Origin: Bacillota bacterium
GTDB taxonomy: Bacteria; Bacillota; Clostridia; Oscillospirales; Oscillospiraceae
Assembly: GCA_021768085.1 (NCBI GenBank)
Contig: JAETOJ010000015.1
Location: 1 to 64,000, forward strand
Length of the DNA stretch: 64,000 nucleotides
Reading direction: 5' to 3'
The position numbers were made by a program, and so were the translations under genes. The notes beneath the pieces are model-generated. The model saw only the letters and a program-made list of their open reading frames with translations, was not told where the DNA came from and ran no database searches. Positions within the stretch are counted from its first letter, which is position 1. Each line of letters starts with the position of its first letter. Below, one piece after another: positions 14,513-60,342 of the stretch.

Positions 14513-15130
14513 TTACCGCCGGGGGCCCCGCAAAGACGCCCTTTCGTCTTTGTGGGGAGAGGAGGCGCAGCGGAACGAAGAAGCTTTCCCCGCAGGGGGA
14601 AGCGCCTGAGTGGAGCTTGTGCCGACGAGGGCGGGCTTGAGCACGCTGATTTTGGGCAACAGTTTCAGCAGCGGCGTGCCCAGCACGTAGCACACCAGCG
14701 CCTCGGCGGGAGCAAAGGTAAGGGCGTTCCAGCCGCAGGCCGTCCAGAACGCCCCGTTCAACGCGCCTACCTCCGTCCAGGCCCACATGGGGGACAGGAT
14801 CAGGGCGTTGATCAGGATGGGGGGCAGGGCCGCCAGATACCACTTGGGCATCTTCATGGTGAGCCAGGCGGCGATGGCGGTGGCCAGGGTGCCGAACAGC
14901 CAGTCCAGCGGGCCGAAGGGGGACAGCAGATTGGTGAGGAAGCACCCCACCACCAGCCCCGGGGCGGCGGCGGGGAACAGGAAGGGCAGCACGGTGAGGG
15001 CCTCGGCAAACCGGCACTGGAACACCAGAAAGTTCAGACCGAAGATGTTGGCGAAATAGCCCATCACGGTGTAGAGCGCCGCCACCATGGCGGCAATGGT
15101 CAGATCACGGACGGAAAACCTGTGCATCAA
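14513..15130 (-). CDS. queT: QueT-like transporter with a repeat-derived C-terminus
   Basis: The 205-residue membrane protein matches QueT (DUF988), the substrate-binding subunit thought to import queuosine precursors through an ECF module. The signature is RFAEALTVLPFLFPAAAPGL near residue 40, then NLLSPFGPLDWLFGTLAT. About five TM segments end near residue 160 (LLKLLPKI). Residues from about 167 to the stop are encoded by the dispersed repeat at 14522-14629, giving a Ser/Arg-rich tail unlike the family, whose members are normally about 160-175 residues. Start ATG 15130 follows AAAGGAGG. A structured leader lies upstream. Confidence 0.85.
   Translation of the reverse strand: MMHRFSVRDLTIAAMVAALYTVMGYFANIFGLNFLVFQCRFAEALTVLPFLFPAAAPGLVVGCFLTNLLSPFGPLDWLFGTLATAIAAWLTMKMPKWYLAALPPILINALILSPMWAWTEVGALNGAFWTACGWNALTFAPAEALVCYVLGTPLLKLLPKISVLKPALVGTSSTQALPPAGKASSFRCASSPHKDERASLRGPRR
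14522..14629 (+). repeat. Structured repeat, copy A
   Basis: Shares GGGGCCCC, GTGGGGAGAGGAGGC, CAGCGGAA and the end block GCTTGTGCCGACGAG with copies B and C. Hairpin 1 has arms CAAAGACG/CGTCTTTG; hairpin 2 has GCTTTCCCC/GGGGGAAGC. It overlaps the 3' end of queT and is read antisense by that gene. Confidence 0.85.
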
Positions 15131-15149
15131 AAAAGCCTCCTTTATCTTT

Positions 15150-15221
15150 AGAGCGCCATCGCGTTGGCGCAGCGGCGGGCGTTCCTTCCGGACGGGAACG
15201 CGCTTTCCCGCCCGCGGCTCT
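15150..15221 (-). promoter_or_regulatory. Structured 5' leader of queT
   Basis: Outer arms AGAGC (15150-15154) and GCTCT (15217-15221) enclose hairpins GCGCCA/TGGCGC (15153-15170) and GCGTTCC/GGAACGC (15179-15201). It sits immediately before the ribosome site. QueT genes often carry preQ1 riboswitches, but I could not find the preQ1-I core, so this is an unidentified leader structure. Confidence 0.45.
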
Positions 15222-15369
15222 CTGCCCGCCGGTTGGACCGAAGTGGAGGTCGGTCGCGCTTATCCTATCACAGGTTTTGTCATTTGTACAGGCTTTTTTG
15301 TAAAGTGCCTCGGTTGACACCGGGTGGGGCGGTATATTATAGTGGGTGGAGGGTAGGCGTCAAAGCCTT

Positions 15370-15397
15370 TTGACAGGCCAGGGCAAGGCCATGTCAA
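15370..15397 (+). promoter_or_regulatory. Inverted repeat before the Xre membrane protein
   Basis: TTGACAGGCC (15370-15379) and GGCCaTGTCAA (15387-15397) form an inverted repeat 60 bp before the start codon. It may be an operator for the Xre protein; the left arm doubles as a possible -35 box. Confidence 0.4.
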
Positions 15398-15459
15398 CCC
15401 CTTTTGATAGACAAAGGCGGAGGTATTTGAGAGAATGCTTCCGAAAGGAGGACAACCCA

Positions 15460-15867
15460 ATGGAAATAGGGAAGAAGCTGAAGGCGGCTCGGCAGGGCTC
15501 CGGCCTCACCCAGGAGCAAGTGGCGGAGCGCCTCTATGTGTCCCGCCAGACCATCTCCAACTGGGAGAATGAGAAATCGTACCCCGACATCGTCAGCGTC
15601 GTCCGGCTGTCCGACCTGTATTCCATCAGCCTGGACGACTTATTGAAAGGGGATGCCAAAATGCTGGAGCACCTTGAGGAGAGTACGGATATCGTGAAAA
15701 GCAACCAGAAGCTGATCCTGGCGATCCTGGCAAACATCGCGGTGTTTTTGGCCTGCCTGCTGACGGCCGCCCTTCTGCCAGACAGCGTGCTGGTGATCGC
15801 CTGCATTTTCTGTCTGGCGGTGGTGAGCGTGGCCTGTCTGCTGTACCAGATTGTCAAACGGATTTGA
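15460..15867 (+). CDS. Xre family regulator with membrane tail
   Basis: The 135-residue protein has a Cro/C1-type helix-turn-helix at residues 4-60 (LKAARQGSGLTQEQVAERLYVSRQTISNWENEKSYP is the core) and two hydrophobic segments near 88-107 and 109-128. This layout is common among Clostridia as a membrane-tethered regulator. ATG 15460 is preceded by AAAGGAGG; longer in-frame starts lack a ribosome site. It is followed after 12 bp by a small membrane protein gene on the same strand, so the two are likely co-transcribed. Target genes unknown. Confidence 0.88.
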   Translation: MEIGKKLKAARQGSGLTQEQVAERLYVSRQTISNWENEKSYPDIVSVVRLSDLYSISLDDLLKGDAKMLEHLEESTDIVKSNQKLILAILANIAVFLACLLTAALLPDSVLVIACIFCLAVVSVACLLYQIVKRI

Positions 15868-15879
15868 GGAGGATGGAAC

Positions 15880-16224
15880 ATGGGTCATCTTTACATCGTG
15901 TCCGCCGCCCTGGGCGGGGCGGCGGTGCTTGTGGGCAGCTTCTTCTGCGTGTACCAGCTCTACAGGCTGGTGCAGGTGGACGCGGAATGCCGGGGGCTGA
16001 AGCACCCCAGGCTGTGGGGGCTGCTGGCTGCCTCGGGCAACGGCCAGTCGGGGCTGCTGCTGTACCTCGTCGGCCGCAGAAAACACCCCGTCCTGTCCAT
16101 GTCGAAGGAGCAAAAGGACTGCATGGGGCGGCGCAAAAAGCGGTTTGGCGTGGGGCTGCTGTTCCTGACCCTGGGGGCCGTGATCTGCGTGCTCAGTATG
16201 CTTTTAGGGGGACAAATGGGATAA
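15880..16224 (+). CDS. Small membrane protein, function unknown
   Basis: The 114-residue product has a first hydrophobic segment at residues 3-27, a moderately hydrophobic stretch near 45-65, a basic loop (GRRKHPV... to MGRRKKRF), and a last TM at about 90-108. I do not recognise a family. It lies 12 bp after the Xre gene with GAGGATGG before the ATG, so it is probably the second gene of that operon and may be its regulated partner. A bidirectional terminator follows. Confidence 0.7.
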   Translation: MGHLYIVSAALGGAAVLVGSFFCVYQLYRLVQVDAECRGLKHPRLWGLLAASGNGQSGLLLYLVGRRKHPVLSMSKEQKDCMGRRKKRFGVGLLFLTLGAVICVLSMLLGGQMG

Positions 16225-16227
16225 AAA

Positions 16228-16253
16228 GGGCCGCCGGCATCTGCCGGCGGCCC
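16228..16253. terminator. Bidirectional terminator
   Basis: Perfect 12-bp arms GGGCCGCCGGCA (16228-16239) and TGCCGGCGGCCC (16242-16253) lie between the small membrane protein gene and the convergent rplA. Confidence 0.85.
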
Positions 16254-16268
16254 TTCATTATGTTAGGA

Positions 16269-16964
16269 TTACGCGAACTTGCCGGTGTTCAGCTTCACGC
16301 CGGGGCCCATGGTGGACGCAGCGACGCAGCTCTTGACGTACTGGCCCTTGGCGGCGGCAGGCTTGGCCTTGACAATGGCGCCCATGAGGGCGTTCAGGTT
16401 GTCGCTGAGCTTCTCGGGGCCGAAGGACACCTTGCCGATGGGGCAGTGGATGATGTTGGTCTTGTCCAAGCGGTACTCCACCTTACCGGCCTTGATCTCG
16501 TTGACGGCCTGGGTCACGTTGGGAGTGACGGTGCCGGCCTTGGGGGAGGGCATCAGGCCCTTGGGGCCCAGCACCTTACCCAGGCGGCCCACCACGCCCA
16601 TCATGTCGGGGGTGGCAACGACGACATCGAAGTCGAACCAGTTTTCCTTCTGGATTTTCTCCACCATATCCATATCGCCCACGTAGTCGGCGCCGGCGGC
16701 CTTGGCCTCCTCGGCCTTGTCGCCCTTGGCGAACACCAGCACCCGGGCGGTCTTGCCGGTGCCGTGGGGGAGGACGATGGCGCCGCGAACCTGCTGGTCG
16801 GCGTGGCGGGAGTCCACGCCCAGCTTTACGTGCAGCTCCACGGTCTCGTCGAACTTGGCAGTGGCGGTCTTGATCACCAGCTCCATGGCCTCGTTCACGT
16901 CATACTGGGCGGCGCGGTCGATGAGCTTGGCGCTGTCTACATACTTTTTGCCTTTTTTAGCCAT
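16269..16964 (-). CDS. rplA: 50S ribosomal protein L1
   Basis: L1 forms the mobile L1 stalk that handles E-site tRNA and in many bacteria represses its own mRNA. The 231-residue length is normal. Characteristic segments include [20 protein letters not shown] near residue 70, [18 protein letters not shown] and [14 protein letters not shown] near the end. Start ATG 16964 follows AAAGGAGGAAG. It is the last gene of rpmG-secE-nusG-rplK-rplA; rplJ and rplL do not follow, since a terminator comes next. A likely L1-binding leader precedes rplK. Confidence 0.97.
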
Positions 16965-16983
16965 TTCTGCTTCCTCCTTTCCC

Positions 16984-17409
16984 TTATTCCTCCACCAGCA
17001 CGCCCATGGAGCGGGCGGTGCCGGCGATCATGCTCATGGCGGCCTCCAGGCTGGCGGCGTTCAGGTCGGGCATCTTGGTCTCGGCGATCTTCTGGCAGTC
17101 CGCCTTGGACAGGGTGGCCACCTTGGTCTTGTTGGGCACGCCGGAGCCGGACTCAATGCCGCAGGCCTTCTTGATGAGCACGGGGGCGGGAGGGGTCTTG
17201 GTGATGAAGGAGAAGGAGCGGTCGGCGTATACGGTGATCACCACGGGGATGATCAGGCCCATGTCCTTCTTGGTGCGCTCGTTGAACTCCTTGGTGAAGG
17301 CGGCGATGTTCACGCCGTGCTGGCCCAGGGCGGGGCCCACAGGGGGGGCCGGAGTTGCCTGGCCGGCGGGGATTTGCAGCTTGACATATCCAGTAATTTT
17401 CTGTGCCAT
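16984..17409 (-). CDS. rplK: 50S ribosomal protein L11
   Basis: L11 forms the GTPase-associated centre with 23S rRNA. The protein is exactly 141 residues when started at ATG 17409, the family norm; the upstream GTG at 17421 overlaps the Shine-Dalgarno sequence and is rejected. Diagnostic segments are [20 protein letters not shown] (the proline pair binds factors) and TARSMGV at the C-terminus. It lies 19 bp before rplA and 128 bp after nusG; that gap holds a leader structure likely to bind L1. Confidence 0.97.
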
Positions 17410-17435
17410 TTGAAACAGCACCTCCTACATAAAAT

Positions 17436-17492
17436 GTGGTGGTGACGAAATCCACGTCAGGATTTCTCCCACGGGCGGGTCTTACCCGCCTC
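17436..17492 (-). promoter_or_regulatory. Probable L1-binding leader of rplK-rplA
   Basis: On the minus strand GTGGGAG (17472-17466) is followed by a small stem AAATCC/GGATTT and then GTCACCACCAC (17446-17436). The GTGGGAG strand with a closing CCAC strand resembles the L1 site on 23S rRNA and known rplK leaders. A GGCGGGT-N3-ACCCGCC hairpin (17475-17491) lies just before it. Autoregulation is inferred. Confidence 0.5.
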
Positions 17493-17537
17493 TTGTTTGT
17501 GTTATCACGCCTCGCCTGTTCGCGACGGCTCGGACGC

Positions 17538-18119
17538 TCAGATTGTCTCGACCTGATCCAGATCCAGCTCCGCGGGGATCTCCCGGCCGAACATGGACAC
17601 CACGACCCGGACCTTGCCCCGCTCGGCGTCCAGATCCTCCACCGTGCCGAACTGGCCGGACAGGGCGCCGTCGGTGATGCGCACGCTGTCGCCCACGGCG
17701 TAGTCCACCTCCACCAGGGGGCGCTTCTCCGGGCGCAGGGCAGCCATCTCGTCCTCCCCCAGGGCGGTGATCTCCTCCTCGTGGGACTCGATGCCCATGG
17801 CGGCGATTTCCTCGTCGGTGAGGGGGATGGCCTTGTTGGCGGCGCCTACGAAGCCGGTGACGCCCCGGATGTTGCGCACCAGGTGCCAGGTCTCGTCGGT
17901 CATGATCATCTTCACCAGCACGTAGCCGGGGAACACCTTGCGCTCCACGGTTTTGGGGCCGTTGTCGGTGATCTCGGTGACCGTCTCCAGGGGGATGGAC
18001 ACCTCGGCGATCAGATCGTGCATATTGCGGTTCTCCACAGCCTGCTGGATGGACACGGCCACCGTATTCTCATAGCCGGAGTAGGTGTGGGCCACGTACC
18101 ACTTCAGTTCGTCCGCCAT
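17538..18119 (-). CDS. nusG: Transcription termination/antitermination protein NusG
   Basis: The 193-residue protein has the NGN domain (residues 5-115) with the start KWYVAHTYSGYENTVA and the core FPGYVLVKMIMTDETWHLVRN, and a C-terminal KOW domain (about 140-190, VGDSVRITDGALSGQFGTVE). NusG binds RNA polymerase and couples it to the ribosome or Rho. Start is ATG 18119, six bases after the secE stop. The pairing secE-nusG is conserved across bacteria. Length is slightly above the Bacillus protein because of an acidic linker (residues 100-130). Confidence 0.97.
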   Translation of the reverse strand: MADELKWYVAHTYSGYENTVAVSIQQAVENRNMHDLIAEVSIPLETVTEITDNGPKTVERKVFPGYVLVKMIMTDETWHLVRNIRGVTGFVGAANKAIPLTDEEIAAMGIESHEEEITALGEDEMAALRPEKRPLVEVDYAVGDSVRITDGALSGQFGTVEDLDAERGKVRVVVSMFGREIPAELDLDQVETI

Positions 18120-18125
18120 GGCCCG

Positions 18126-18416
18126 TTACGCTCCAAAGAGCTTGAGCAGGGCGCCCACCACCGCGTGAGCCAGGTAGTCAAACACCCAGATGCACACGCC
18201 TACGATCAGGACGCACACGATGACGATGCCCACGCTCTTGATCACGTCTTTGGCGGAGGGCCAGGTGACCTTCTTGAGCTCGCCCTTCAGATCCTTGAGC
18301 CAGCGCAGGACGCGGTTGGGCTTCTTGGCGTCCTTCTTCTTGGGCGCCTTGGCCTTCTTGTCGGAGCTTACGGTCTCCTTCTGAGCGGCGTTGTCCCGCT
18401 TCTCCTGTTCAGACAT
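18126..18416 (-). CDS. secE: Preprotein translocase subunit SecE
   Basis: SecE stabilises SecY in the membrane. The 96-residue product has a charged, Lys-rich N-terminal half, the conserved amphipathic segment LKDLKGELKKVTWPSAKDVI at about 40-59, and one TM helix (60-82), the minimal Gram-positive form. It lies between rpmG and nusG, its usual place. Start ATG 18416 follows GAAAGAAGGGTTGAACTGA. The partner secY is in the large ribosomal cluster at 54.1 kb. Confidence 0.95.
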   Translation of the reverse strand: MSEQEKRDNAAQKETVSSDKKAKAPKKKDAKKPNRVLRWLKDLKGELKKVTWPSAKDVIKSVGIVIVCVLIVGVCIWVFDYLAHAVVGALLKLFGA

Positions 18417-18452
18417 TCAGTTCAACCCTTCTTTCGTTGTGAGCGGCGCTCA

Positions 18453-18617
18453 TTACTTGGTTTCGGTGTGCAGAGTGTGCTTTCTGCAGAAGGGGCAGTA
18501 CTTGTTGAGCTCCAAACGCTCGGTGGTGTTGCGCTTGTTCTTCTTGGTGTTGTAGTTGCGCTGCTTGCACTCGGAGCAGCGCAGCACGACCTTTACACGG
18601 TTCCCGGCTTTCGCCAT
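18453..18617 (-). CDS. rpmG: 50S ribosomal protein L33, zinc-binding form
   Basis: The 54-residue protein begins [14 protein letters not shown] at ATG 18617, behind GGAGGTGCC. The pairs CSEC and CPFC supply four cysteines for a zinc ribbon, marking the zinc-dependent paralogue. Its C-terminal KHTLHTETK is typical. It leads the rpmG-secE-nusG-rplK-rplA operon and is preceded by a leader of about 215 bases and a strong promoter. The longer reading frame from 18701 would consist of leader sequence and is rejected. Confidence 0.95.
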
Positions 18618-18626
18618 TCTCGGCAC

Positions 18627-18831
18627 CTCCTTTTGAATTTGGCCTGACCGGCAAAAAAGCGCCGGACGGCCTATGCCGATCCGACGCCTTACACTGGGCA
18701 TAGCATGCCCAGCATATCGCTACGGGGGATCGGCGCATTGCCTCCCTGCGGCCTCCCGGGGAGGATCAGGGTTTTTGTCCGCGTCCCGTAAAAACGCGCG
18801 CAAAAAGAAAGCCCTGCACACAGGTGCTGAT
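18627..18831 (-). promoter_or_regulatory. Structured leader of the rpmG operon
   Basis: Between the promoter and rpmG the transcript can fold into several hairpins: CTGGGCAT-N3-ATGCCCAG, enclosed by CCGATCC/GGATCGG; CCTCCC/GGGAGG; and GTTTTT/AAAAAC. No tRNA is found here, although tRNA-Trp is common before secE in other bacteria. A regulatory role is inferred from the structure and length. Confidence 0.45.
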
Positions 18832-18860
18832 AGCATATCACACCTGCGGGGGCTTGTCAA
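18832..18860 (-). promoter_or_regulatory. Promoter of the rpmG-secE-nusG-rplK-rplA operon
   Basis: Minus strand: TTGACA (18860-18855), exactly 17 bp, TATGCT (18837-18832). Its -35 box overlaps that of the divergent ruvX promoter. Confidence 0.8.
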
Positions 18861-18882
18861 GGGTTCTTTTTTTTATTATAAT
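18854..18882 (+). promoter_or_regulatory. Promoter of ruvX
   Basis: Plus strand: TTGTCA (18854-18859), exactly 17 bp, TATAAT (18877-18882). The heptamer TTGTCAA serves both strands as -35 box, so polymerase can occupy only one promoter at a time. Confidence 0.8.
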
Positions 18883-18950
18883 GTGTTAACTGCGTTTCCC
18901 GCGCCTGCGGCGCGGAAAACAGGGAACACTTCCTGATTGGAGGGGATGAG

Positions 18951-19370
18951 ATGCGCGTGATGGCCATCGACTACGGCGACGCCCGGACGGGGGTGGCGGT
19001 GTCCGACGCCGCCGGGATGCTCACGGGGTACACCACGGTGATCCCCAGCCGCGCGCCGGAGCGGGCGGCGGAGGAGCTGGCCCGGATCGCCCGGGAGCGG
19101 CAGGCGGAGGAGCTGGTGATGGGCTTCCCCCGGAACATGGACGGCACGGAGGGGCCGAGAGCAGAGCTGTACCGCGCCTTCGCCGCGCTGGTGGAGGAAA
19201 AGGCGGGTATGCCCGTGCGGCTGTGGGACGAGCGGCGCACCACCATCGAGGCCCACCAGATCCTCCACGCCTCGGGGAAGAAGATGAAGGCCCACAAAAA
19301 GAATGTGGACGCGGTGGCGGCGTCGCTCATTCTGGAGGGGTATCTGGCCTTCCGGGCGCGGAACCCATAA
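18951..19370 (+). CDS. ruvX: Putative pre-16S rRNA nuclease RuvX/YqgF
   Basis: The 139-residue RNase H-fold nuclease matures the 5' end of 16S rRNA and was once called a Holliday junction resolvase. The fold motifs are present: MAIDYGDARTGVAVSD at the N-terminus with its catalytic Asp, GFPRNMDGTEGP in the middle, LWDERRTT, and KKNVDAVAASLILEGYL at the C-terminus. Start ATG 18951 follows GGAGGGGATGAG. It has its own promoter, divergent from the rpmG operon, and is convergent with a small Xre gene. Confidence 0.92.
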   Translation: MRVMAIDYGDARTGVAVSDAAGMLTGYTTVIPSRAPERAAEELARIARERQAEELVMGFPRNMDGTEGPRAELYRAFAALVEEKAGMPVRLWDERRTTIEAHQILHASGKKMKAHKKNVDAVAASLILEGYLAFRARNP

Positions 19371-19373
19371 ACG

Positions 19374-19604
19374 CTACTCTTTTGCCTGAGTTTTTCTGGG
19401 GTAGGGGTTCGGATCATCGGTCAGCTCGGCCAGGTAGTCCATGCTGGTTCGCAGGGCCAGTGCGATCCGTTTGCATTGTTCAAAAGACATATTTCGGTAT
19501 CCACGTTCAATTTTTGAGTAATCACTTTGATCTATCCCAGTCAGCATTTGCATTTTTACCTGGGTAAATTTCCGCTTTTTTCTCAAATCTCTCAAACGCG
19601 ACAT
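19374..19604 (-). CDS. Small Xre family DNA-binding protein
   Basis: The 76-residue protein is almost entirely a Cro/C1-type helix-turn-helix: LRDLRKKRKFTQVKMQMLTG, then SDYSKIERGYRNMS. No effector domain is present, as in phage repressors and antitoxin-like regulators. I take ATG 19604 as start, with GGGTG upstream; the in-frame ATG at 19616 and TTG at 19619 have no ribosome site. It is divergent from a 57-residue ORF; direct repeats GACCTAT (19634 and 19659) in the spacer are candidate binding sites. Confidence 0.85.
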   Translation of the reverse strand: MSRLRDLRKKRKFTQVKMQMLTGIDQSDYSKIERGYRNMSFEQCKRIALALRTSMDYLAELTDDPNPYPRKTQAKE

Positions 19605-19633
19605 ATCATCACCCATCAAAATTATGGCAAATT

Positions 19634-19668: not shown

Positions 19669-19679
19669 GGCCTTGGGTG

Positions 19680-19881: not shown

Positions 19882-19886
19882 TCACG

Positions 19887-20033: not shown

Positions 20034-20083
20034 GTTCTGACCTCTTTTCCCTCTGCTGCGGTTGTTGTTGCGTTATGCTTTCC

Positions 20084-30575: not shown

Positions 30576-30594
30576 CTGGAAGCTCCAGTGCTTT

Positions 30595-30684
30595 CCTCAT
30601 CTCGCGTTTCCGCCGGACTTGGCACCTTGCAAAGCAGGTTGCCGTGGCTTCATCGGGCCGGTCCCTCCGCCACTCTTGATAAGG
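30595..30684 (-). ncRNA. SAM-I (S-box) riboswitch
   Basis: Reading the minus strand from 30684, the aptamer shows the S-box landmarks in order: CTTATCAAGAG, GGCGGAGGGA, CGGCCCGATGAAGCC, CGGCAACC, the P3/P4 helices around GGTGCCAA, and a closing GATGAGG that pairs with CCTTATC. It senses SAM and controls metK through the terminator at 30546-30575. Confidence 0.95.
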
Positions 30685-30705
30685 GATTATTCAGTTGATA
30701 CCTTT

Positions 30706-40046: not shown

Positions 40047-41795
40047 TCACTTCTGTTTCCGCTCCCGCAGCGTCCGCACCAGCTCCTCGCTGGGGGTGAC
40101 GTACAGGGTTTGGTAGGTGTTGTAGATCACGTAGCCGGGCTTGGCCCCGGCGGGCTTTTTTACGACCTTTACCGGGGTGTAGTCCACCGGCACCTGGCCC
40201 GACTCCCGGCCCTGGGAGAACCAGGCCGCCAGCATGGCCGCCTCGGTGAGGGACGCCTCGTCCGGCTGAGCTCCAGCCGTTTTCAGGATCACGTGGGAGC
40301 CGTGGAGCTTCTGGGCGTGGAGCCACAGATCCCGCTTGTCCGCGTCCTTCAGGGTGAGGCGGTCGTTCTGGCTATTGTTCTTGCCCACCAGGATGGTCAG
40401 CCCCCCGGAGGACGTGAACTCCATGGGCTTGGAGCGGACGAGCTTCTGGCGGCCCTTGGCGGTCATCTTCCGCTTGTGCTGCTTGAGGTAGCCGTTGTCC
40501 ATCAGCTCCTGGCGGATCTCCTGCAAGTCCCGATCCCCCTCGGACAGGGTGATCATCTGGAGCACGCTGTCCAGGTAGTCCAGCTCGGCCCGGTTCTTCT
40601 CCAATTGGATGGTGAGCATCTCCTCCGCTTTCTGGGCTTTCTTGTACTCCTTATAATACTTGGCCGCGTTCTGCTGGGGGGTGAGGAGGGGATCCAACGG
40701 TATGTCCACCTCCGGGCAGTCCGGGTCGTAGTAGTCCTGGGCCCGGAGGACGGACTGGCCCTTGGACATCTGATAGAAGTTGGTGGTGAGGATGTCCCCG
40801 TACCGGCGCAGCTTGTCCCGATCGGCGGTGCGGGCCAGATCCCCCTCCTGGTTGGCGATCTTCTTCGCCGTGCGGTTCCGGGCCTGGGTGACGGAGCGGA
40901 TGAAGTCCTGACCCCGCTGCTTCACCCGCTCCTGGGCCTCCTTCTGCTCGTAGAAGTCGTCCAGCAGGGCGGAGAAGGTGGGGTAGCGTTTCAGCTCCAC
41001 CGAGGGGCCGTATTGCAACACGGCTTGGAAGGTGAAGTCTATAGGCTTGCCGTCCCGTACCAGCACTGTAGGTGTAAAGTCCCCCGCCCGTACCCGATCC
41101 ATGAGCTGCGCAAGACGATCCGCCAGCCCGTCCTTCGTCCCCTCCCCCTGGAAGGCCAGCTCCCGGGCGGTGAGGGGGGACAGGCCGTTGAAGGTATCCA
41201 GCAGCCATTTGTCCTGACCGTCCCCCTCGGGGGCGTTGGCGAGGACGAAGGAGCGCAGTTCCTCGGCGGGCATGGCGGAGGGATCCAGCCGCCCGGTGGG
41301 CTCCGGGGGGGCGTAGAACAGCCCGGGCATCACGGGACGCTTGACAGACAGATCCCCGTCCGCCCGGCGCATACAGTCGGTGATCCGGCCCGCGCCGTCC
41401 AGCATGATCAGGTTGGACTTGCGGCCGATGCACTCCAGCACCAGCCGGCGCTCCACCCGATCCCCCAGCTCGTCCAGGGCCTCGAACCGGAAGTCCAGCA
41501 GCCGCTCCATAGAGGGCTGGGACAGCTCCAGCAGGCGGGCCCCGGTGAAGTGCTTGCGCAGCAGCATACAGAACATGGGGGGCGTCTCCGGGTTCTCCCG
41601 GGGCACCTTTGTCAGCTGGGCCCGAGGGTGGGCGGGGCTGGCGGACAGCAGCAGCCGTACGTTATCCCGGCCCGCCCGCATATGGAGCACCGCCTCGTCC
41701 CGGGCGGGCTGGTAGAGCTTGTCCACCTTGCCGCCTACCAGGGTCTCCCGCAGCTCCCCCGCTAAGGCTGTCATAAAGATTGCGTCAAAAGGCAT
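40047..41795 (-). CDS. rqcH: Ribosome quality control protein RqcH (NFACT family)
   Basis: RqcH binds stalled 50S subunits and adds C-terminal alanine tails that mark nascent chains for degradation. The 582-residue protein has the NFACT-N domain at the start (DAIFMTALAGELRETLVGGK), a long coiled-coil middle (about 270-430), and a C-terminal NFACT-R domain with DLWLHAQKLHGSHVILKTAG and PGYVIYNTYQTLYVTP. It was formerly annotated as a fibronectin-binding protein. Start ATG 41795 follows GGAGGGAAACG. Its upstream neighbour is mrnC, with a copy of the dispersed repeat between. Confidence 0.95.
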   Translation of the reverse strand: MPFDAIFMTALAGELRETLVGGKVDKLYQPARDEAVLHMRAGRDNVRLLLSASPAHPRAQLTKVPRENPETPPMFCMLLRKHFTGARLLELSQPSMERLLDFRFEALDELGDRVERRLVLECIGRKSNLIMLDGAGRITDCMRRADGDLSVKRPVMPGLFYAPPEPTGRLDPSAMPAEELRSFVLANAPEGDGQDKWLLDTFNGLSPLTARELAFQGEGTKDGLADRLAQLMDRVRAGDFTPTVLVRDGKPIDFTFQAVLQYGPSVELKRYPTFSALLDDFYEQKEAQERVKQRGQDFIRSVTQARNRTAKKIANQEGDLARTADRDKLRRYGDILTTNFYQMSKGQSVLRAQDYYDPDCPEVDIPLDPLLTPQQNAAKYYKEYKKAQKAEEMLTIQLEKNRAELDYLDSVLQMITLSEGDRDLQEIRQELMDNGYLKQHKRKMTAKGRQKLVRSKPMEFTSSGGLTILVGKNNSQNDRLTLKDADKRDLWLHAQKLHGSHVILKTAGAQPDEASLTEAAMLAAWFSQGRESGQVPVDYTPVKVVKKPAGAKPGYVIYNTYQTLYVTPSEELVRTLRERKQK

Positions 41796-41823
41796 AATTT
41801 ACGTTTCCCTCCAAGCAGATTTC

Positions 41824-41932
41824 GGGGCCCCCGCGAAAGCGCCCTTCCGCTTTCGTGGGGAGAGGAGGCACAGCGGAACGGAGTCGCTTTCCCCGAAGGG
41901 GGAAGCGACTGAGTGCAGCTTGTGCCGACGAG
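41824..41932 (+). repeat. Structured repeat, copy B
   Basis: The best-formed copy: GGGGCCCC, hairpin 1 CGAAAGCG/CGCTTTCG, GTGGGGAGAGGAGGCACAGC, hairpin 2 AGTCGCTTTCCCC/GGGGGAAGCGACT, and the end block GCTTGTGCCGACGAG. GGCACA and TGTGCC can close a three-way junction. It ends at the base next to the mrnC stop codon and begins 29 bp after the rqcH start, in the mrnC-rqcH spacer. Confidence 0.88.
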
Positions 41933-42346
41933 TCAAACGGCATTGCTTGCCTCCTCCATCATGGCGTCGAATAACTCGTTGAGCCGGTCGGTTCTGCCCT
42001 GCAAATACAGCCAGCCGAACAGGGACTCCAGCGCTGTGGCGGCGTGGTACTCCCCCACGCTGGCCCCCTTGGGGACGGCGGCGGTGCGGCTGTTGCGGCC
42101 CCGGCGGTAGACGGCCTGCTCCTCCTCGGTCAGCAGGGGAAGGATGGCGTGAATTAGCTTGGCCTGGGCGGGGGCGGCCACGTATTTCACCGCCGCCTTG
42201 TGCAGCCCCGCGTTGGTGGCCTTGCCGTGAAGGCACAGCCAGGAGCGCACCATCAGTTCGTATACTCCGTCCCCCAGATGGGCCAGGCCCAGGGCGCTGA
42301 TTTTTTCGATGGCGTCCGGTTGGGCGGACAGGTGAAAGTAGTCCAT
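41933..42346 (-). CDS. mrnC: Mini-ribonuclease III
   Basis: MrnC matures 23S rRNA ends in Gram-positive bacteria. The 137-residue protein has the RNase III catalytic domain without the double-stranded RNA-binding domain; LGLAHLGDGVYELMVRSWL is the signature helix and EYHAATALESLFGWLYL the second conserved block. Start ATG 42346 follows GGAGAGCTTCCC. The stop codon directly abuts structured repeat copy B. It precedes rqcH on the same strand. Confidence 0.93.
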   Translation of the reverse strand: MDYFHLSAQPDAIEKISALGLAHLGDGVYELMVRSWLCLHGKATNAGLHKAAVKYVAAPAQAKLIHAILPLLTEEEQAVYRRGRNSRTAAVPKGASVGEYHAATALESLFGWLYLQGRTDRLNELFDAMMEEASNAV

Positions 42347-44247: not shown

Positions 44248-44512
44248 GCGCCTGTCAAAGGGTGCACTGCGATGATGCGGGAGATTGCTCGCGATAAGCG
44301 AGGTAACTTCCGCGGAGTATGTCCGTATAATCGGGCGGCTGAGAGACTCATGCCATGGCGTATATCGCCCTGGGTGGGTAGAACCGGCTCGCTTTGCGCC
44401 GGTTTTATTCATGCCGGGGAGTGATACGCACGGAAACGTGGATGAAACGTCTCTCACCGTACGAAGCAAGGACAGCCTTACCGTCAACTTCGTATGTTAA
44501 GGAGGAAAACAC
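44248..44512 (+). promoter_or_regulatory. Leader of the S10 supercluster with attenuator-like hairpin
   Basis: The long untranslated leader holds several stems (for example CTCGC-N5-GCGAG near 44290) and, at 44382-44405, a terminator-like stem AACCGGC/GCCGGTT followed by TTATT. In Escherichia coli the S10 leader is regulated by L4; a similar attenuation here is inference. No coding frame with a ribosome site is seen in the leader. Confidence 0.5.
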
Positions 44513-54090: not shown

Positions 54091-54092
54091 GC

Positions 54093-55439
54093 ATGATTCA
54101 GACCATCAAAAACGCCTGGAAGGTGCCGGAGCTGCGGGGTAAGATCCTGTTCACCGTGTTCGCCCTGCTCATCTTCCGGGTGGGCGCCGCTATCCCGGTG
54201 CCCTTCATCGACACCGAAATGCTGAAAACCTATATCGAGGCCCAGTCGGGCAGCATCTTCGGCCTGCTCAACGTGATGAGCGGCGACGCCTTCGCCCAGG
54301 CCACGGTGTTCGCCCTGTCCATCCAGCCCTATATCAACAGCTCCATCATCATTCAGCTGCTGACCATCGCCATCCCCGCCCTGGAGCGCCTCCAGAAGGA
54401 GGGCGGCGAGGAGGGCAAGAAGAAGCTGGAAGCCATCACCCGGTACGCCACCGTGGGCATCGCCATCATCCAGGCCTTCGGCTACTACACCTTCCTCCGG
54501 GTGGGCACCAACGGCACCAGCCTGCTCACGGTGCAGGGCGTGTGGCCCGCCATCGTGATCATCACCGCCTTCGTGGCTGGCTCCGCCTTCCTGATGTGGC
54601 TGGGCGAGCAGATCACCGAGTTCGGCATCGGCAACGGCATCTCCATCATCCTGTTTGCCGGCATTGTGGCCCGGGGCCCCGCCATGGTGAACACCATTTA
54701 CCACGGCGTGACCGCTTGGATCGGCAAGGCCGACCCCACCACCACTGTGGTGATGCACCCGGTATTTATCCCCTTCGTCATCGTCGGTATGCTGCTGCTG
54801 GTGGCGTTCATCGTGTTCATCACCGACGCCGAGCGGCGTATCCCCGTGCAGTACGCCAAGCGGGTGGTGGGCCGGAAGATGTACGGCGGTCAGTCCAGCC
54901 ATATTCCCATCAAGGTGAATATGTCCGGCGTGCTGCCCATCATCTTTGCCCAGGCCATCGCCTCCATCCCCGCTACCATCGGGATGTTCGTGCCCTCCGC
55001 CCAGACCAAGGGCAGCGGCTGGAACACCTTCCTGACCATCTTTGATACCTCGGGGTGGGTGTACAGCATTGTGTATTTCCTGCTGATCATCCTGTTCAGC
55101 TATTTCTACAACACCATCCAGTTCAACCCCGTTGAGGTGGCCAACAACCTGAAGAAGAACGGCGGGTTCATCCCCGGCTTCCGCCCGGGCAAGCCCACCA
55201 GCGACTTCCTGTCCAAGGTTATCTCCCGGCTGACCATCTTCGGCGCCATCTACCTGGGCATCGTGGCCCTGCTGCCCACCGTGGTGGGCAACATCATGGG
55301 CGCCTTCGGCAGCAGCGCTGGGCGCAGCCTGGGCATCGGCGGCACCTCCATCATCATCGTGGTGGGCGTGGCGCTGGAGACCGTAAAGGCCCTGGAGGCC
55401 CAGCTCATGATGCGTCACTACAAGGGCTTCCTTGAGTGA
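54093..55439 (+). CDS. secY: Preprotein translocase subunit SecY
   Basis: SecY is the protein-conducting channel. The 448-residue protein has ten predicted TM helices; conserved blocks include [13 protein letters not shown] after helix 1, the plug-region segment [28 protein letters not shown]..., the C5 region [20 protein letters not shown], and the C-terminal [15 protein letters not shown] 54093 follows the rplO stop by two bases. With SecE (18126-18416) it forms the core translocon; SecG is not in the window. Confidence 0.98.
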
Positions 55440-55456
55440 GAGCAGGGGTGACTGAG

Positions 55457-56089
55457 ATGAAGCTCATTATGCTCGGCGCCCCCGGCGCCGGTAAGGGGAC
55501 CCAGGCCGCCATCTTCAGTGAGCGGCTGGGCATCCCCACCATTTCCACAGGGAATATCCTGCGGGCTGCCGTGAAAAACGGCACGCCCGTGGGACTCCAG
55601 GCCAAGAGCTACATGGACGCGGGCAAGCTGGTGCCCGATGAGGTGATCATCGGCATCATCGCCGAGCGGCTGGGTGAGGCGGACTGCCAGAAGGGCTATA
55701 TCCTGGACGGTGTGCCCCGCACCATCGCCCAGGCCGAGGCCCTGGAGGCCGCCGGAATTCGGTTTGACTGCGTGCTGGATATCGAGGTGGACGACCAGGA
55801 GATCCAGCGGCGTATGTCCGGCCGGCGGGCCTGCACCGCCTGCGGCGCCACCTACCACGTGGAGGCCGCCCCCCCCAAGGTGGAGGGCGTGTGCGACGCC
55901 TGCGGCGGGACGCTGGTGCAGCGGGACGACGACAAGCCGGAGACCGTGCAGGATCGTCTGCGGGTGTACCACGCCCAGACCGAGCCCCTCAAGGACTTTT
56001 ACGCCCAGCGGGGCGTCCTCAAGGTGGTGGACAATCAGCCCACCATCGAGGACACCTCCAAGGCCATCGCGGCCGCTCTGGGTGTCTAA
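55457..56089 (+). CDS. adk: Adenylate kinase
   Basis: Adk converts ATP and AMP to two ADP. The 210-residue protein has the P-loop [12 protein letters not shown] at residues 6-17, the AMP-binding region [14 protein letters not shown] and a long LID with four cysteines (CTAC...CDAC) that bind zinc, the Gram-positive form. ATG 55457 follows AGGGGTGACTGAG; the longer frame overlaps secY. It sits between secY and map as in Bacillus. Confidence 0.97.
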
Positions 56090-56091
56090 CC

Positions 56092-56865
56092 ATGGAGCTG
56101 ATTACGCTGAAATCCCCCCGGGAGCAGGAGGCCATGCGCAGGGCCGGACGGATCACCGCCCAGGCCCGGGCGCTGGCCGGAAGCATGGTGTGCCCAGGGA
56201 TCTCCACCAAGGAGATTGACGACGCGGTGCGCAGGTTTATCCGGGGCAAGGGGGCGGAACCCTCCTTTTTGGGATACGGCGGCTTCCCTGCCTCCACCTG
56301 CATTTCAGTGAACGAGGTGGTTATCCACGGGATCCCGTCCAGAAAGACCGTTCTGCGGGAAGGGGACATCGTCAGCGTTGACGTGGGGGCTTTTATTGAC
56401 GGCTTCCACGGCGACTGCGCCGCCACCTACCCCTGCGGGGAGATCTCCTCTGAGGCCCAGCGGCTCATTGACGTGACCCGCCAGAGCTTCTGGGAGGGTT
56501 TCCAATTCGCAAGGGCGGGCCAGCGGGTGTCCGACATCTCTCACGCGGTTCAGCAGTACGTGGAGAAGCACGGCTATTCCGTGGTGCGGGATTTCGTGGG
56601 CCACGGCGTGGGGGCCAAGATGCACGAGGCCCCCGAGGTGCCCAACTTTGGCCCCGCCGGGCACGGCGCCCGGCTCCAGCCGGGTATGGCCATCGCCGTG
56701 GAGCCCATGGTGTGCGCCGGAGACTGGCCGGTGAAGGTGCTCAAGGACGGCTGGACTACCGTGTCAACGGACGGTTCACTGGCGGCCCACTATGAGAACA
56801 CCATCCTCATCACCGAGGACGGGCCCGAGATCACCACGGTCACCGAGGACGGGGCCTATGAGTGA
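56092..56865 (+). CDS. map: Type I methionine aminopeptidase
   Basis: Map removes N-terminal Met from nascent proteins. The 257-residue protein has the metal ligands in VDVGAFIDGFHGDCAATY (two Asp), FVGHGVGAKMHEAPEVP (His), and the C-terminal Glu residues in VEPMVCAG and HYENTILITEDGPEI. The substrate His lies in NEVVIHGIPS. ATG 56092 follows the adk stop by two bases without its own strong ribosome site, implying coupled translation. The next gene overlaps by eight bases. Confidence 0.96.
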   Translation: MELITLKSPREQEAMRRAGRITAQARALAGSMVCPGISTKEIDDAVRRFIRGKGAEPSFLGYGGFPASTCISVNEVVIHGIPSRKTVLREGDIVSVDVGAFIDGFHGDCAATYPCGEISSEAQRLIDVTRQSFWEGFQFARAGQRVSDISHAVQQYVEKHGYSVVRDFVGHGVGAKMHEAPEVPNFGPAGHGARLQPGMAIAVEPMVCAGDWPVKVLKDGWTTVSTDGSLAAHYENTILITEDGPEITTVTEDGAYE

Positions 56866-57148
56866 GTGCACAGGCTGGATCGTCCGCTCAAACGCCGGAC
56901 GGGACAGGGACGGGCTGTTCTGCGTCGTGGGCATGGATCAGGAGGGAAAGCGGCTGCTGCTGGCCGACGGCAAGCGGCGAAAGTGCGCGCGGCCCAAGGC
57001 CAAACAGCCGGGGCACGTCACCGTGCTGGCCGGATTCCCCCAGGGATATGATCACCCCGCCATTCAAAGGCTGAAGCAGGGCGAGGCCCTGAGCGACAAG
57101 GAATTGAGAAGGGCGCTGGCCGCGTTCCGAGATCAACTGGAGGTATGA
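56858..57148 (+). CDS. KOW domain RNA-binding protein (L14e/L27e-like)
   Basis: The 96-residue protein starts [20 protein letters not shown], a KOW-type start like that of eukaryotic L14e/L27e proteins, and has a basic RNA-binding stretch ([15 protein letters not shown]). Genes of this kind sit between map and infA in many Clostridia. Its ATG overlaps the end of map by eight bases, and infA starts four bases after its stop, so it belongs to the ribosomal cluster. The precise function is unknown. Confidence 0.9.
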
Positions 57149-57152
57149 CGCT

Positions 57153-57371
57153 TTGGCAAAAGACGACATGATCGAGTTAGAGGGCGTCGTCACCGAGGCC
57201 CTGCCTAACACCACGTTCAACGTGGATATTGGAAATGGACACATTATTCTGGCACACATTTCCGGGAAGCTGCGGATGAACTTCATCCGCATTCTCCCCG
57301 GCGACAAGGTCACGGTTCAGATGTCGCCCTACGACCTGACCCGGGGCCGGATTACCTGGCGTTCCAAGTAA
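57153..57371 (+). CDS. infA: Translation initiation factor IF-1
   Basis: IF-1 blocks the A-site during initiation. The 72-residue OB-fold protein has [40 protein letters not shown] and [13 protein letters not shown], exact family length. The start codon is TTG at 57153, supported by the spacing to GGAGGT and by the MAKDD start expected for the family. A 228 bp gap with structured repeat copy D follows. Confidence 0.97.
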
Positions 57372-57450
57372 ACTATCAACGACCGAGTTGAAACGGACTG
57401 TCACCCGTTGGGGCCTTGCCTCCACAGGTGCGCCGAAACTGGCGGCCGGA

Positions 57451-57566
57451 GGCCGCCCCAAACCGAAGCCCAGCGAAGCGGGTTCGGTTTGGAGAGGAGG
57501 AGCGGCGGAGTGAACGAGCCCTCGCGTTTGCGCGGGGGTGAGCGATACGCAGCCCGCGACGACGAG
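57451..57566 (+). repeat. Structured repeat, copy D (diverged)
   Basis: Between infA and rpmJ. It retains GGCCGCCCC, a long hairpin 1 (CAAACCGAA-g-CCC / GGG-TTCGGTTTG, loop AGCGAAGC shared with copy C), GGAGAGGAG, a second hairpin (CCCTCGCG/CGCGGGGG) and the end GACGACGAG. It is more diverged than A-C but keeps order, orientation and pairing. Confidence 0.65.
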
Positions 57567-57599
57567 GGGCCATCAGGCATTAACAGGAGGTTAAACGAT

Positions 57600-57713
57600 A
57601 TGAAAGTCAGACCGTCTGTCAAGCCCATGTGCGAGAAGTGCAAGATCATCAAGCGCAAGGGCAAAGTCATGGTCATTTGCGAGAACCCCAAGCACAAGCA
57701 GAGACAAGGTTAA
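57600..57713 (+). CDS. rpmJ: 50S ribosomal protein L36
   Basis: The 37-residue protein [20 protein letters not shown]... has three Cys and a His (KHKQ) for zinc, the standard Cys-containing L36. ATG 57600 follows AGGAGG. It lies between the repeat-bearing gap after infA and rpsM (16 bp). Confidence 0.97.
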
Positions 57714-57729
57714 AGGAGGGACATAGAGT

Positions 57730-58098
57730 ATGGCACGTATTGCCGGCATTGATCTGCCGAAGGAGAAGCGAGTCGAGATCGGACTCACCTATATTTATGG
57801 CATCGGCCGCACCAGCGCGAGCAAGATCCTGGAGAAGGCGGGCATCAACCCCGATACCCGCGTGAAGGATCTCACCGACGCCGAGGAGGCCAAGCTGCGT
57901 GAGATCATCGGCCACGAGTACACCGTGGAGGGCGACCTGCGCCGCAACGTGGCGATGGACATCAAGCGCCTGACCGAGATCGGCTGCTACCGGGGCATCC
58001 GCCATCGCAAGGGCCTTCCTGTGCGCGGTCAGCGCTCCAAAACCAACGCGCGTACCCGTAAGGGTCCCAAGCGCACCGTCGCCAACAAGAAGAAGTAA
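57730..58098 (+). CDS. rpsM: 30S ribosomal protein S13
   Basis: S13 bridges the 30S head to 50S. 122 residues with [40 protein letters not shown] and [14 protein letters not shown] 57730 follows AAGGAGGGAC. 14 bp before rpsK. Confidence 0.98.
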
Positions 58099-58112
58099 GG
58101 AGGGATCATCAC

Positions 58113-58508
58113 ATGGCTGCTAACAAGAAAACCATCAAGCGCCGCCGCGAGCGCAAAAATGTGGAGAAGGGTCAGGTGCATATCCGCTCCTCCTTCAACA
58201 ACACCATGATCACCGTCACCGATATGCAGGGCAACGCCCTGTCCTGGGCTTCCTCCGGTGAGATGGGCTTCCGGGGCTCCCGGAAATCCACCCCCTTCGC
58301 CGCCCAGACCGCCGCCGAGACCGCTGCCAATGCCGCCATCGAGCAGTGCGGCCTCAAGAGCGTCGAGGTGTATGTCAAGGGTCCCGGCCAAGGGCGCGAG
58401 GCTGCTATCCGGGCGCTCCAGGCCGTGGGCCTGGAGGTCACCCTCATCAAGGACGTGACACCCGTGCCCCACAACGGCTGCCGTCCCCCCAAGCGCCGCC
58501 GCGTCTGA
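58113..58508 (+). CDS. rpsK: 30S ribosomal protein S11
   Basis: S11 lines the mRNA exit channel. 131 residues with [40 protein letters not shown] and [18 protein letters not shown] end. ATG 58113 follows AAGGAGGGATCATCAC. 21 bp before rpsD. Confidence 0.98.
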
Positions 58509-58529
58509 TCTGGAAGGAGGAAAACCGAT

Positions 58530-59129
58530 ATGGCTAAGAATATGCAGCCCTACCTGAAGCGCTGCCGCACGCTGGGCATCTCCCCCGCCGTCATGGGCGT
58601 GAACAAGGAGTCCAACCGGAACCCCGGCCCCCAGCGCCGCCCCAAGAAGAGCGAGTACGCGCTCCAGCTCACCGAGAAGCAGAAGGTGAAGTTCGTCTAC
58701 GGCGTGCTGGAGAAGCAGTTCCGCGCCTACTACGAGAAGGCCGCCCGCATGAAGGGCAACACCGGCGACGAGCTGATGACCCTGCTGGAGCGCCGGCTGG
58801 ACAACGTGGTGTTCCGTCTGGGCCTGGCCGCCACCCGGCGGGAGGCCCGGCAGCTGGTCAACCATGGCCACTTTACCGTCAACGGCAAGCGGGTGAATAT
58901 CCCCTCCTACCTGGTCAAGACCGGCGATGTGGTGGCTGTGCGGGACAAGAGCCGCTCCTCCGCCAAGTTCAAGAAGATGGTGGAGGACGACCGGTTCGTG
59001 GCCGCCCCCAAGTGGCTGGAGAAGGCGAAGAACGCGCCGCTGGAGGGTAAAGTCATTGCCATGCCGCAGCGGGACGACATCGACTTCGATGTTGCTGTTA
59101 ACCTCATCGTGGAGTTGTACTCCAAGTAA
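58530..59129 (+). CDS. rpsD: 30S ribosomal protein S4
   Basis: S4 nucleates 30S assembly and in Escherichia coli represses the alpha operon. The 199-residue protein has the S4 RNA-binding domain (RLDNVVFRLGLAATRREARQ, VNHGHFTVNGKRVNIPSYLV). The N-terminus starts AKNMQPYLKRCRTLGISPAV; the zinc Cys of long S4 forms are not complete. ATG 58530 follows AAGGAGG. 129 bp before rpoA. Confidence 0.97.
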   Translation: MAKNMQPYLKRCRTLGISPAVMGVNKESNRNPGPQRRPKKSEYALQLTEKQKVKFVYGVLEKQFRAYYEKAARMKGNTGDELMTLLERRLDNVVFRLGLAATRREARQLVNHGHFTVNGKRVNIPSYLVKTGDVVAVRDKSRSSAKFKKMVEDDRFVAAPKWLEKAKNAPLEGKVIAMPQRDDIDFDVAVNLIVELYSK

Positions 59130-59258
59130 TGCCGGCCATCCGTCGGTATTACCGGGAGGCCCGCCGTCCGGCTGGGCGGCGGGTTGCCCGGCGTACAACG
59201 ACCCTACCGAGCGATTCCCGGCAACAAACGCCACTGTAAAAGGAGGGTAACACACGAT
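59130..59258 (+). promoter_or_regulatory. Gap between rpsD and rpoA
   Basis: A stem CCCGCCG / CGGCGGG lies near 59159-59184, and AGGAGGG precedes rpoA. No promoter is convincing. The hairpin may adjust rpoA relative to ribosomal protein expression (inference). Confidence 0.3.
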
Positions 59259-60209
59259 ATGGTAGAAATCCAGAAGCCGCGTATCGAATGTATCGAGAAT
59301 GTGGGCGACGATTCCTACGGGAAATACGTGGTCGAGCCGCTGGAGCGGGGCTACGGCACCACCATCGGCAACTCCCTGCGTCGCATCCTGCTGTCCTCGC
59401 TGCCCGGCACGGCGGTCACCACCGTCAAAATCGCCGGCGTGCAACACGAGTTCTCCGTCATCCCTGGCGTCAAGGAGGACGTGACGGAGATTGTCCTCAA
59501 CATCAAGGGCATCATCGCCAAACTGTACAGCGAGGGCGTCAAAACGGTCTACATTGAGGCCGCCGGCGAGGGCGCCGTCACCGCGGGGGATATCAAAACC
59601 GACAGCGACGTGGAGATCTTGAACCCGGAGCACCACATTGCTACCCTGGGGCCCGAGGCCACCCTCAACATGGAGCTCACCCTGTCCCAGGGCCGGGGCT
59701 ATGTCACCGCGGATCGAAACAAGCCTTCCCAGACGATCATCGGGGTCATCCCCGTGGACTCGGTATACACCCCTGTGCGGAAGGTGAATTACTTCGTGGA
59801 GAACACCCGCGTGGGCGACGCCACAGACTACGATAAGCTGACGCTGGAGGTCTGGACCAACGGCACGATTTCCGCCCGGGATGCCGTCTCCCTGGGCGCC
59901 CGGATTCTGGTGGATCACTTTACCCTGTTCACCGATTTGTCCGAAACCATGGGCTCCAAGGCCACTGTGGTAGAGAAGGCCGAGGCCCAGCGCGACAAGG
60001 TGCTGGAGCTTACCATCGAGGAGCTGGATCTGTCCGTGCGTTCCTTCAACTGCCTGAAGCGGGCCAATATTAACACCGTGGAGGATCTCATCTCCAAGAC
60101 TGAGGACGAGATGATGAAGGTGCGCAACCTGGGCCGCAAGTCCCTGGAGGAGGTCATCAACAAGCTGGCGATGATGGGACTGTCCCTGGCCAGCGACGAG
60201 AATCTTTAA
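59259..60209 (+). CDS. rpoA: RNA polymerase alpha subunit
   Basis: The 316-residue protein has the N-terminal dimer domain ([38 protein letters not shown]) and the C-terminal DNA- and activator-binding domain ([25 protein letters not shown]-like [30 protein letters not shown]). ATG 59259 follows AGGAGGG. A 257 bp gap with a hairpin and repeat copy C separates it from rplQ. Confidence 0.98.
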
Positions 60210-60230
60210 AACGGCGCAAAGCGCTGTTTT
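60208..60230 (+). terminator. Attenuator-like hairpin after rpoA
   Basis: AAAACgGCGC-AAA-GCGCtGTTTT directly overlaps the rpoA stop codon and ends in TTTT. It may partly terminate transcription before rplQ. Confidence 0.5.
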
Positions 60231-60342
60231 GGGGCCCCACGAAAGCCCAGCGAAGCGGGTTTCGTGGGGAGAGGAGGCACAGCGAAATGAGTGAGCTTTC
60301 AGCGAAGCTGGAAGCGAAGGATATGGAGCTTGTGCCGACGAG
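60231..60342 (+). repeat. Structured repeat, copy C
   Basis: Lies between rpoA and rplQ. GGGGCCCC, hairpin 1 CGAAA-g-CCC / GGG-TTTCG, GTGGGGAGAGGAGGCACAGCG, hairpin 2 GCTTTCAGC/GCTGGAAGC and the end block GCTTGTGCCGACGAG. Relative to copies A and B both hairpins have compensatory base changes. Confidence 0.88.

Follow-up and report, generated by a model that had tools for sequence, protein, structure and literature searches.

A double-hairpin DNA element of gut Oscillospiraceae as the possible right part of a guide-directed insertion unit

Introduction

The DNA analysed here, called the window, is a stretch of 64,000 nucleotides from an Oscillospiraceae bacterium (assembly GCA_021768085.1, contig JAETOJ010000015.1, positions 1 to 64,000), in which four structured repeats, copies A to D, are found. 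Copy A sits between convergent open reading frames (ORFs), copy C lies in the ribosomal cluster and copy D between rpoA and rplQ. They are members of a family of DNA elements of about 110 bases with two hairpins, carried by Oscillospiraceae gut bacteria and named E in this work. Each element starts with GGGG(CCCC), followed by hairpin 1, the motif GAGGAG, a long stem-loop and a CGACGA end. In a minority of copies, some of them at the ends of housekeeping genes, a duplication of the left flank begins right after this end, and the bases preceding hairpin 1 are complementary to the sequence across that junction; at the level of sequence, this points to a small mobile element that would locate its target by base pairing. 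Numbers with G and L denote the genomes and loci compared.

The four repeats of the window

All four repeats were found where the original prediction had placed them, on the plus strand, and can be aligned over their whole length (Table 1). One detail needed correction, as the most diverged copy is C (57451-57566 in that account) and not D, with 64.2 bits compared to 95.7 for D; the arms CAAACCGAA/TTCGGTTTG belong to copy C. When tested against dinucleotide shuffles, the folds of A, B, C and D gave z values of -3.17, -5.72, -2.54 and -5.29, respectively, all of them beating the shuffles, and the minimum-energy fold of copy C on its own differs from the family fold. Regarding Rfam, the only matches in the window are the SAM riboswitch and the S10-Clostridia leader, neither overlapping a copy of E, while a search with copy D alone at a relaxed threshold gave seven hits, all far under the gathering scores (lowest E 0.07).

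Table 1. Positions of the E copies and associated features in the window
Feature	Position	Strand	Remark
Copy A	14521..14628	+	
Copy B, 12-bp duplication, left copy (GTCAAAAGGCAT)	41784..41795	+	
Copy B, 28-bp spacer, 5' of B	41796..41823	+	not present in empty sites
Copy B	41824..41931	+	hairpin 1, 41829-41860; GAGGAG strand, 41862-41867; hairpin 2; CGACGA 3' end, 41926-41931
Copy B, 12-bp duplication, right copy (GTCAAACGGCAT)	41932..41943	+	immediately after GACGA
Copy C	57453..57565	+	most diverged copy
Small hairpin (AAAACGGCGC / GCGCTGTTTT)	60208..60230	+	abuts the 5' side of copy D; also in the G092 ortholog
Copy D	60231..60341	+	
rpoA-rplQ spacer	60210-60466		structured repeats vary among genus members
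SAM riboswitch	30594-30685	-	Rfam
S10-Clostridia leader	44264-44338	+	Rfam

Extent of the family

A covariance model of E was built from 15 full copies and gave 41 hits at E<=0.001 in the own genome, 33 of them below 1e-9, contradicting the possibility, raised with the original prediction, that no further copies exist; BLAST with copy B found 23 places, some being pieces of one copy. With one genome taken per genus of the family Oscillospiraceae, hits occur in 36 of 61 genomes, with a maximum of 41 in one. In a draw of 299 genomes across the phylum, where 13 candidates were scored per genome, five have hits, two of them being the own genome and another member of its genus. The other three carriers are outside the family and hold E, at least partly, amid prophage-like genes (by eye; five loci), suggesting that phages may move E between hosts; at L181, L183, L186 and L187 these are tightly packed prophage-like structural genes, as also judged by eye. 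A 19-mer scan of named genomes returned 50 stretches, most of which carry the label Oscillospiraceae, Flavonifractor, Oscillibacter or uncultured bacterium, and 49 of the 50 contain a model hit (in L030 away from the 19-mer), the cyanobacterial L067 being the one without. The own genome and most relatives are draft assemblies.

In G043 (L253-L268), E is found within longer composite repeats having palindromes such as GACTTTCTGT..ACAGAAAGTC, several of them at contig ends. In addition, a mobilizable plasmid of Subdoligranulum (OY725877.1; L404 3001-3083) has a partial match to E, by BLAST only, which covers 73% of the query, with a predicted aadE gene some 1.8 kb away.

Fold and covariation

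The conserved strands GAGGAG and CGACGA make up the base of a longer stem that is capped by hairpin 2; by eye, they face each other through G-C pairs plus tandem G-A mismatches. The selection for structure that had been predicted was borne out: among 91 copies from other records (87 distinct), in an alignment fitted to the model and therefore biased toward the structure, 33 of the 34 pairs have double changes and 94.2% of the cells are paired. The double-change cells amount to 561, compared to 157 in shuffles and 46-96 when the partners were slid. Two pairs are mostly G-T (147 of 257 and 193 of 255 copies, among 266 distinct copies), and at the other pairs G-T is seen 217 times and A-C 128 times, with 43 of the latter at a single pair. 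Thus, the strand as written is the folding strand.

The apical loops of hairpin 2 (P2; n = 228) include 57 gCNNGc, 39 cGNAg and 22 GNYA loops. Together, these types make up 118 of the 228 P2 loops, compared to 1 of 52 terminator-like and 58 of 1,191 other hairpins in the same DNA; for P2 against the terminator-like loops, p = 3e-13, which is too small, as are all p-values assuming independence here, because many copies are related. GNYA loops outnumber GNRA loops by 22 to 12 (p = 0.12), and UNCG loops are absent (0 of 228), which has little meaning given 9 of 1,191 elsewhere. These loop types lean to single-stranded DNA, not decisively, and G(CUUG)C is also stable as an RNA loop. The motif GAGGAG is invariant across the 15 seed copies and stands where the tetranucleotide of repetitive extragenic palindromic (REP) sequences would be; GTAG itself is absent, and GGAG is a REP variant.

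Duplications at the right end

A first scan, with right copies at offsets 0-5, found 13 of 208 copies at score >=10, with 0.7 expected. At score >=36, a flank match is present in 46 of 257 copies, and 22 of these begin 0-4 nt past GACGN, 19 of them at nt 0. Among the 22 duplicated rows, three are units of a tpiA array and two of a lepA array, sigA appears twice and one gene is represented by two species; the junction lies within a predicted gene in 18 of the 22, 17 being sense. When flanks of 500 bp were aligned freely, 37 of 284 copies scored 50 or more, compared to 1.0 after re-pairing of the flanks. In 21 of these 37, the right copy begins 0 or 1 nt past the element end, and in the remaining 16 it begins 37-413 nt away, several of these being in nested repeats of G043 or in arrays. 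A scan of starts from -15 to +40 with 90-base windows distributed 35 rows as 11 at 0, 2 at +1, 12 before 0 and 10 later, several of the 12 overrunning the element's own end in arrays. Moreover, tandem repeats of whole units share the same boundary at several places.

The products near ten junctions, as checked with Pfam, are sigma-70, PGK, TIM, enolase, ribosomal protein L17, enoyl-CoA hydratase, flagellin, NAD synthase, SMC and a TPP enzyme; the names lepA, ftsY and mrnC were read from translations. A single 20-kb stretch of Flavonifractor sp. An10 (L287) contains pgk, tpiA and enolase genes, all three with E and a flanking duplication at the 3' end. At ten junctions picked by hand, with the insertion point written as t1^t2, t1 ends in T in nine and t2 begins with G in ten. 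Regarding the right flanks of 259 copies, a purine is present at +2 in about 90%, compared to a background of 50%, indicating that the copies without a visible duplication share the junction preference. The duplicated minority are perhaps the younger copies.

Empty sites in relatives

Left of copy D, the blocks that match between the relative G088 and the window are 91-96% identical. Copies A and B are missing from G088, C is present and a different repeat stands at D. At the position of copy A, the sequence of G088 picks up again at about the GACGA end, and on the left side both genomes differ across some 38 bp; as the left flanks differ, only the right junction is informative. At copy B, G088 and G077 hold a single 12-bp word, with small differences, where the window holds two, the first ending 28 bp ahead of E and the second abutting GACGA. 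By eye, the 28-bp spacer contains the ribosome-binding site of a minus-strand ORF starting at 41795. This locus is filled in four relatives, where hairpin-1 and hairpin-2 types are found in four combinations and where one, G097, is missing half of hairpin 1, indicating that the locus recombines.

Uninterrupted ends of nadE are present in six relatives (G074, G076, G094, G077, G075 and G098), and other sequences stand there in G088, G062 and G092. The end of sigA is empty in G402, G399 and G398, a fourth genome, G403, not being read by the pattern used, and is filled at one point, within about 3 nt, in An10, F. plautii and G019. Copy D has orthologs at the same spacer in G097 and G092, with hairpin 1 altered yet paired, and a shorter relative in G090, the remaining printed spacers having other repeats or nothing. 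Across loci L150-L179, examples of the varying repeats of this spacer are one ending GCGTGACAA and one with the arms GTAGGGGCGC..GTCCGCCCCTACA.

Complementarity between guide and target

The guide is defined here as the stretch 0-11 nt 5' of hairpin 1 whose reverse complement matches the target across the junction. A score >=8 was obtained in 10 of the 22 duplicated rows, representing seven distinct sites, compared to 0.8-1.2 expected, and a score >=12 in eight, compared to 0.35-0.5; this complementarity of the hairpin foot to the putative cleavage point is as in an IS200/IS605-type end. The targets include AAGGAGCT^GCCCGGC at pgk, AGGGCAT^GGGCGCG at enoyl-CoA hydratase, GCCCGACGT^GGACGGC at tpiA and, with one mismatch, GCCATGCT^GGCCCAGGC at flagellin.

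When inverted repeats were scanned without the junction condition, 13 of 243 reached a score >=12, compared to 1 of 240; one of the 13 is an artefact of an N-run, and 6 of the 12 genuine hits contain the junction. In the same scan, a 10-nt match was obtained for the sigA copy of An10, which is missed in the junction-guide count because of an offset junction. By eye, an 11-nt guide match is present at the nadE copy of G083, and no guide was seen at copy B. Comparing sigA between An10 and G019, the target changes from AAACTG to AAATTG along with the guide from CAGTTT to CAATTT, which is one change only. Judged by eye, the small hairpin abutting copy D is possibly a guide-target stem that shrank to a local hairpin.

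Left and right copies of gene ends

In the duplicated rows, the left copy is the working gene end and the right copy is a remnant. At nadE of the own genome, G097 and G100, the right copy agrees with seven native ends at 19.7-20.1 of 21 nt, compared to 16.0 for the left one, which is recoded; nadE in G083 goes against that pattern (left 18.4, right 17.6). Across 11 loci, the codon differences between left and right gene ends are 32 synonymous and 10 nonsynonymous, giving p = 1e-7 against the roughly 36% synonymous estimated under decay of the right copy, and p = 1e-6 once one nadE row and one repeated-gene row were dropped. Plain decay of a target duplication is disfavoured by this synonymous excess, which suggests that the left gene end was probably brought by the unit from a different allele.

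Orientation and gene context

The original prediction favoured a replication-oriented role or a mobile repeat with orientation bias, and its mobile repeat is supported. The replication-oriented role is not, as the strand of E agrees with the sign of the local GC skew in 27 of 54 copies on large contigs of An10, a comparison of low power due to the weak skew; in the own genome, copies are found on either strand of the contigs that bear them. A gene finder trained on this DNA, and able to reproduce the ribosomal operon, places 234 of 254 copies outside predicted genes. In spacers of tandem genes, 94 copies are sense and 49 antisense (p = 0.0002; 23 to 5 in An10 alone), and convergent spacers have 37 copies compared to 18 in divergent ones (p = 0.04), another 56 copies being intragenic or without a gene call on one side. 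Thus, the common direction of the window copies can be a matter of few copies combined with the preference for sense orientation between tandem genes, and no replication cause is needed.

A proposed insertion unit and its alternatives

A junction directly after GACGA, a duplication, empty sites, synonymous differences between gene ends and, at seven sites, complementarity of the guide (g) to t1t2 are observed for a minority of copies. Considering these features, the chances are about even that E is the right part of a non-autonomous, guide-directed insertion unit that restores its target gene. Such a unit, of about 140-250 bp in simple cases, would consist of the target gene end (X_L), a short spacer (S), g and E, its left boundary being a presumed one, and would insert at a point t1^t2 near the gene end. 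There, X_L would substitute for the lost gene end, so that the gene stays intact. Single-stranded DNA would be the active form, in which g picks the target and GAGGAG may place CGACGA for cleavage, as IS200/IS605 guides do, and a putative HUH enzyme acting in trans, either Y1 or similar to a REP-associated tyrosine transposase (RAYT), would cut after t1 and after GACGA. A broader and more tentative proposal is that of a natural homing system, in which elements of about 200 bp would use 8-18 nt of pairing and a recoded gene end that keeps the target working, with separate lineages for conserved genes, among them sigA, pgk, tpiA, rplQ and nadE.

Several observations weigh against a guide-directed unit. 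Roughly nine copies in ten are without a duplication, and the guide is absent from 12 of the 22 duplicated rows, lepA and smc included. Two junctions, C^A at smc and C^G at copy B, misfit T^G, the left arm of the unit greatly exceeds that of the IS608 model in length, and a lagging-strand bias was not visible among the 54 copies compared with the weak GC skew. Regarding the enzyme, 16 of 41 genomes of the genus contain the Y1 family PF01797. It is missing from G083, G062 and G100, which have 25, 17 and 18 BLAST matches, respectively, to a query containing copy D. No PF01797 was found at E<=0.001 in G043, G046, G401, G398 and G403, some of the carriers without it being incomplete drafts, and E (at E<=0.01) occurs in the flanks of none of the 53 loci fetched for PF01797.

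The main rival to a DNA mechanism is an RNA-templated homing, which seems unlikely, where a guide carried with E in the 3' untranslated region pairs with the homologous gene, a nick is made at t1^t2, a reverse transcriptase extends from the 3' end of E into the gene and the left side is sealed by homology. It would account for the sharp right end and the unsharp left one, the sense bias and the gene-derived X_L, and the strong covariation, the two pairs with a G-T wobble majority and the 36 G(CTTG)C loops in P2 suit RNA. However, antisense units exist (the lepA copy L326 and copy B of the window), taken together, the P2 loops are nearer to DNA-stable types, short of a decision, and no reverse transcriptase is named beside E, no search aimed at reverse transcriptases having been made.

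Somewhat less probable is a passive origin, with E as an old structured repeat that undergoes ordinary homologous recombination with foreign alleles bearing E, the illegitimate joining at the hairpin edge creating the duplications and template switching leaving the inverted repeats. The resemblance of X_L to a foreign allele is in line with it, as are the four combinations of P1 and P2 types among relatives at copy B, and unequal crossing-over can yield tandem arrays. Nevertheless, it fails to predict right junctions at GACGA in many unrelated genes, as well as the inverted repeat across the same junction. A cis-acting RNA element of mRNA 3' ends, related to stability or termination and spread through duplication, is improbable, as it suits the sense bias, the 3' location, the strong folding and the poverty of divergent spacers but not the one third of tandem copies that are antisense or the copies missing or halved in close relatives, and it leaves the guide and the duplication unaccounted for; the preference of the original prediction for other roles over a simple cis-acting RNA is reasonable, short of proof.

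Candidate enzymes

The Y1 transposase was rejected as the obvious partner of E, because its presence does not track copy number and E is absent at the 53 PF01797 loci. Among further genomes, PF01797 is present in 7 of 12. In F. plautii, a RAYT-like ORF begins about 70 bp 3' of one E, at a locus found through E; this copy sits at the smc end, the ORF being the next gene. Its Pfam score is 19.9 bits, below the cut-off of 23, and a search of viral contigs with this protein gave no relative. The own genome also carries what remains of a Y1 transposase of the IS200 type, interrupted by an internal stop (L180 1501-1773; G000:C76:83918-84190), about 1 kb from a short E copy at C76:82805-82885.

Comparison with known systems

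The guide-directed unit would amount to a natural version, with a longer guide and repair of the target gene, of the logic published for IS200/IS605 and perhaps shared by REP. As described in PMC6006769, IS200/IS605 elements have two subterminal hairpins with a guide 5' of each foot, their right end is cut after the sequence facing the guide and the target is chosen through pairing. E units resemble IS608 and ISDra2 in the hairpins with a foot guide and in the presumed logic of the right-end cut and of a target chosen by pairing. The natural guide of those elements is a tetranucleotide, whereas it would be of 8-18 nt in E units, which have no internal transposase gene and would restore the target gene end. 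In addition, the left cleavage point of IS608 is much nearer its hairpin than the presumed one of E units.

REP sequences also have guides 5' of the hairpin feet, and their enzyme TnpAREP cleaves at CT, as given in PMC8266576, a dinucleotide in which t1 of E units often ends. They differ from E, whose motif is GAGGAG and not GTAG and which has two hairpins, about 110 nt and stems of free sequence. E units also contain gene-end copies and a long guide, and in most carriers no RAYT was found.

In icd, the element e14 swaps the gene end for a recoded copy. Integrative elements such as e14 and SGI1 share with E units a gene 3' end as the target, but they comprise kilobases and an integrase, compared to a unit of about 200 bp. 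BOX, ERIC, RUP and repeats of the type of miniature inverted-repeat transposable elements (MITEs) are short, non-coding and structured, as E is; E differs by having neither terminal inverted repeats nor a target duplication of fixed length. Features of a MITE of a DDE transposon are absent, since the ends GGGGCCCC and CGACGA differ and the duplications measure 12-134 bp in simple cases. No integron attC core was noticed by eye in E. Among the top matches in open-licence literature, a scope outside which most subscription journals lie, nothing resembles E units. As to the gene targeted, SGI1 integrates in the 3' end of trmE, according to PMC8409611.

If E is indeed the right part of a guide-directed unit, a repeat that is common in gut Oscillospiraceae and outside Rfam would be accounted for, and there would be a new place to seek a compact site-specific insertion enzyme. 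It would also represent a natural counterpart, leaving the target gene intact, of the IS608 engineered for targets of 12-17 nt, as reported in PMC5934647.

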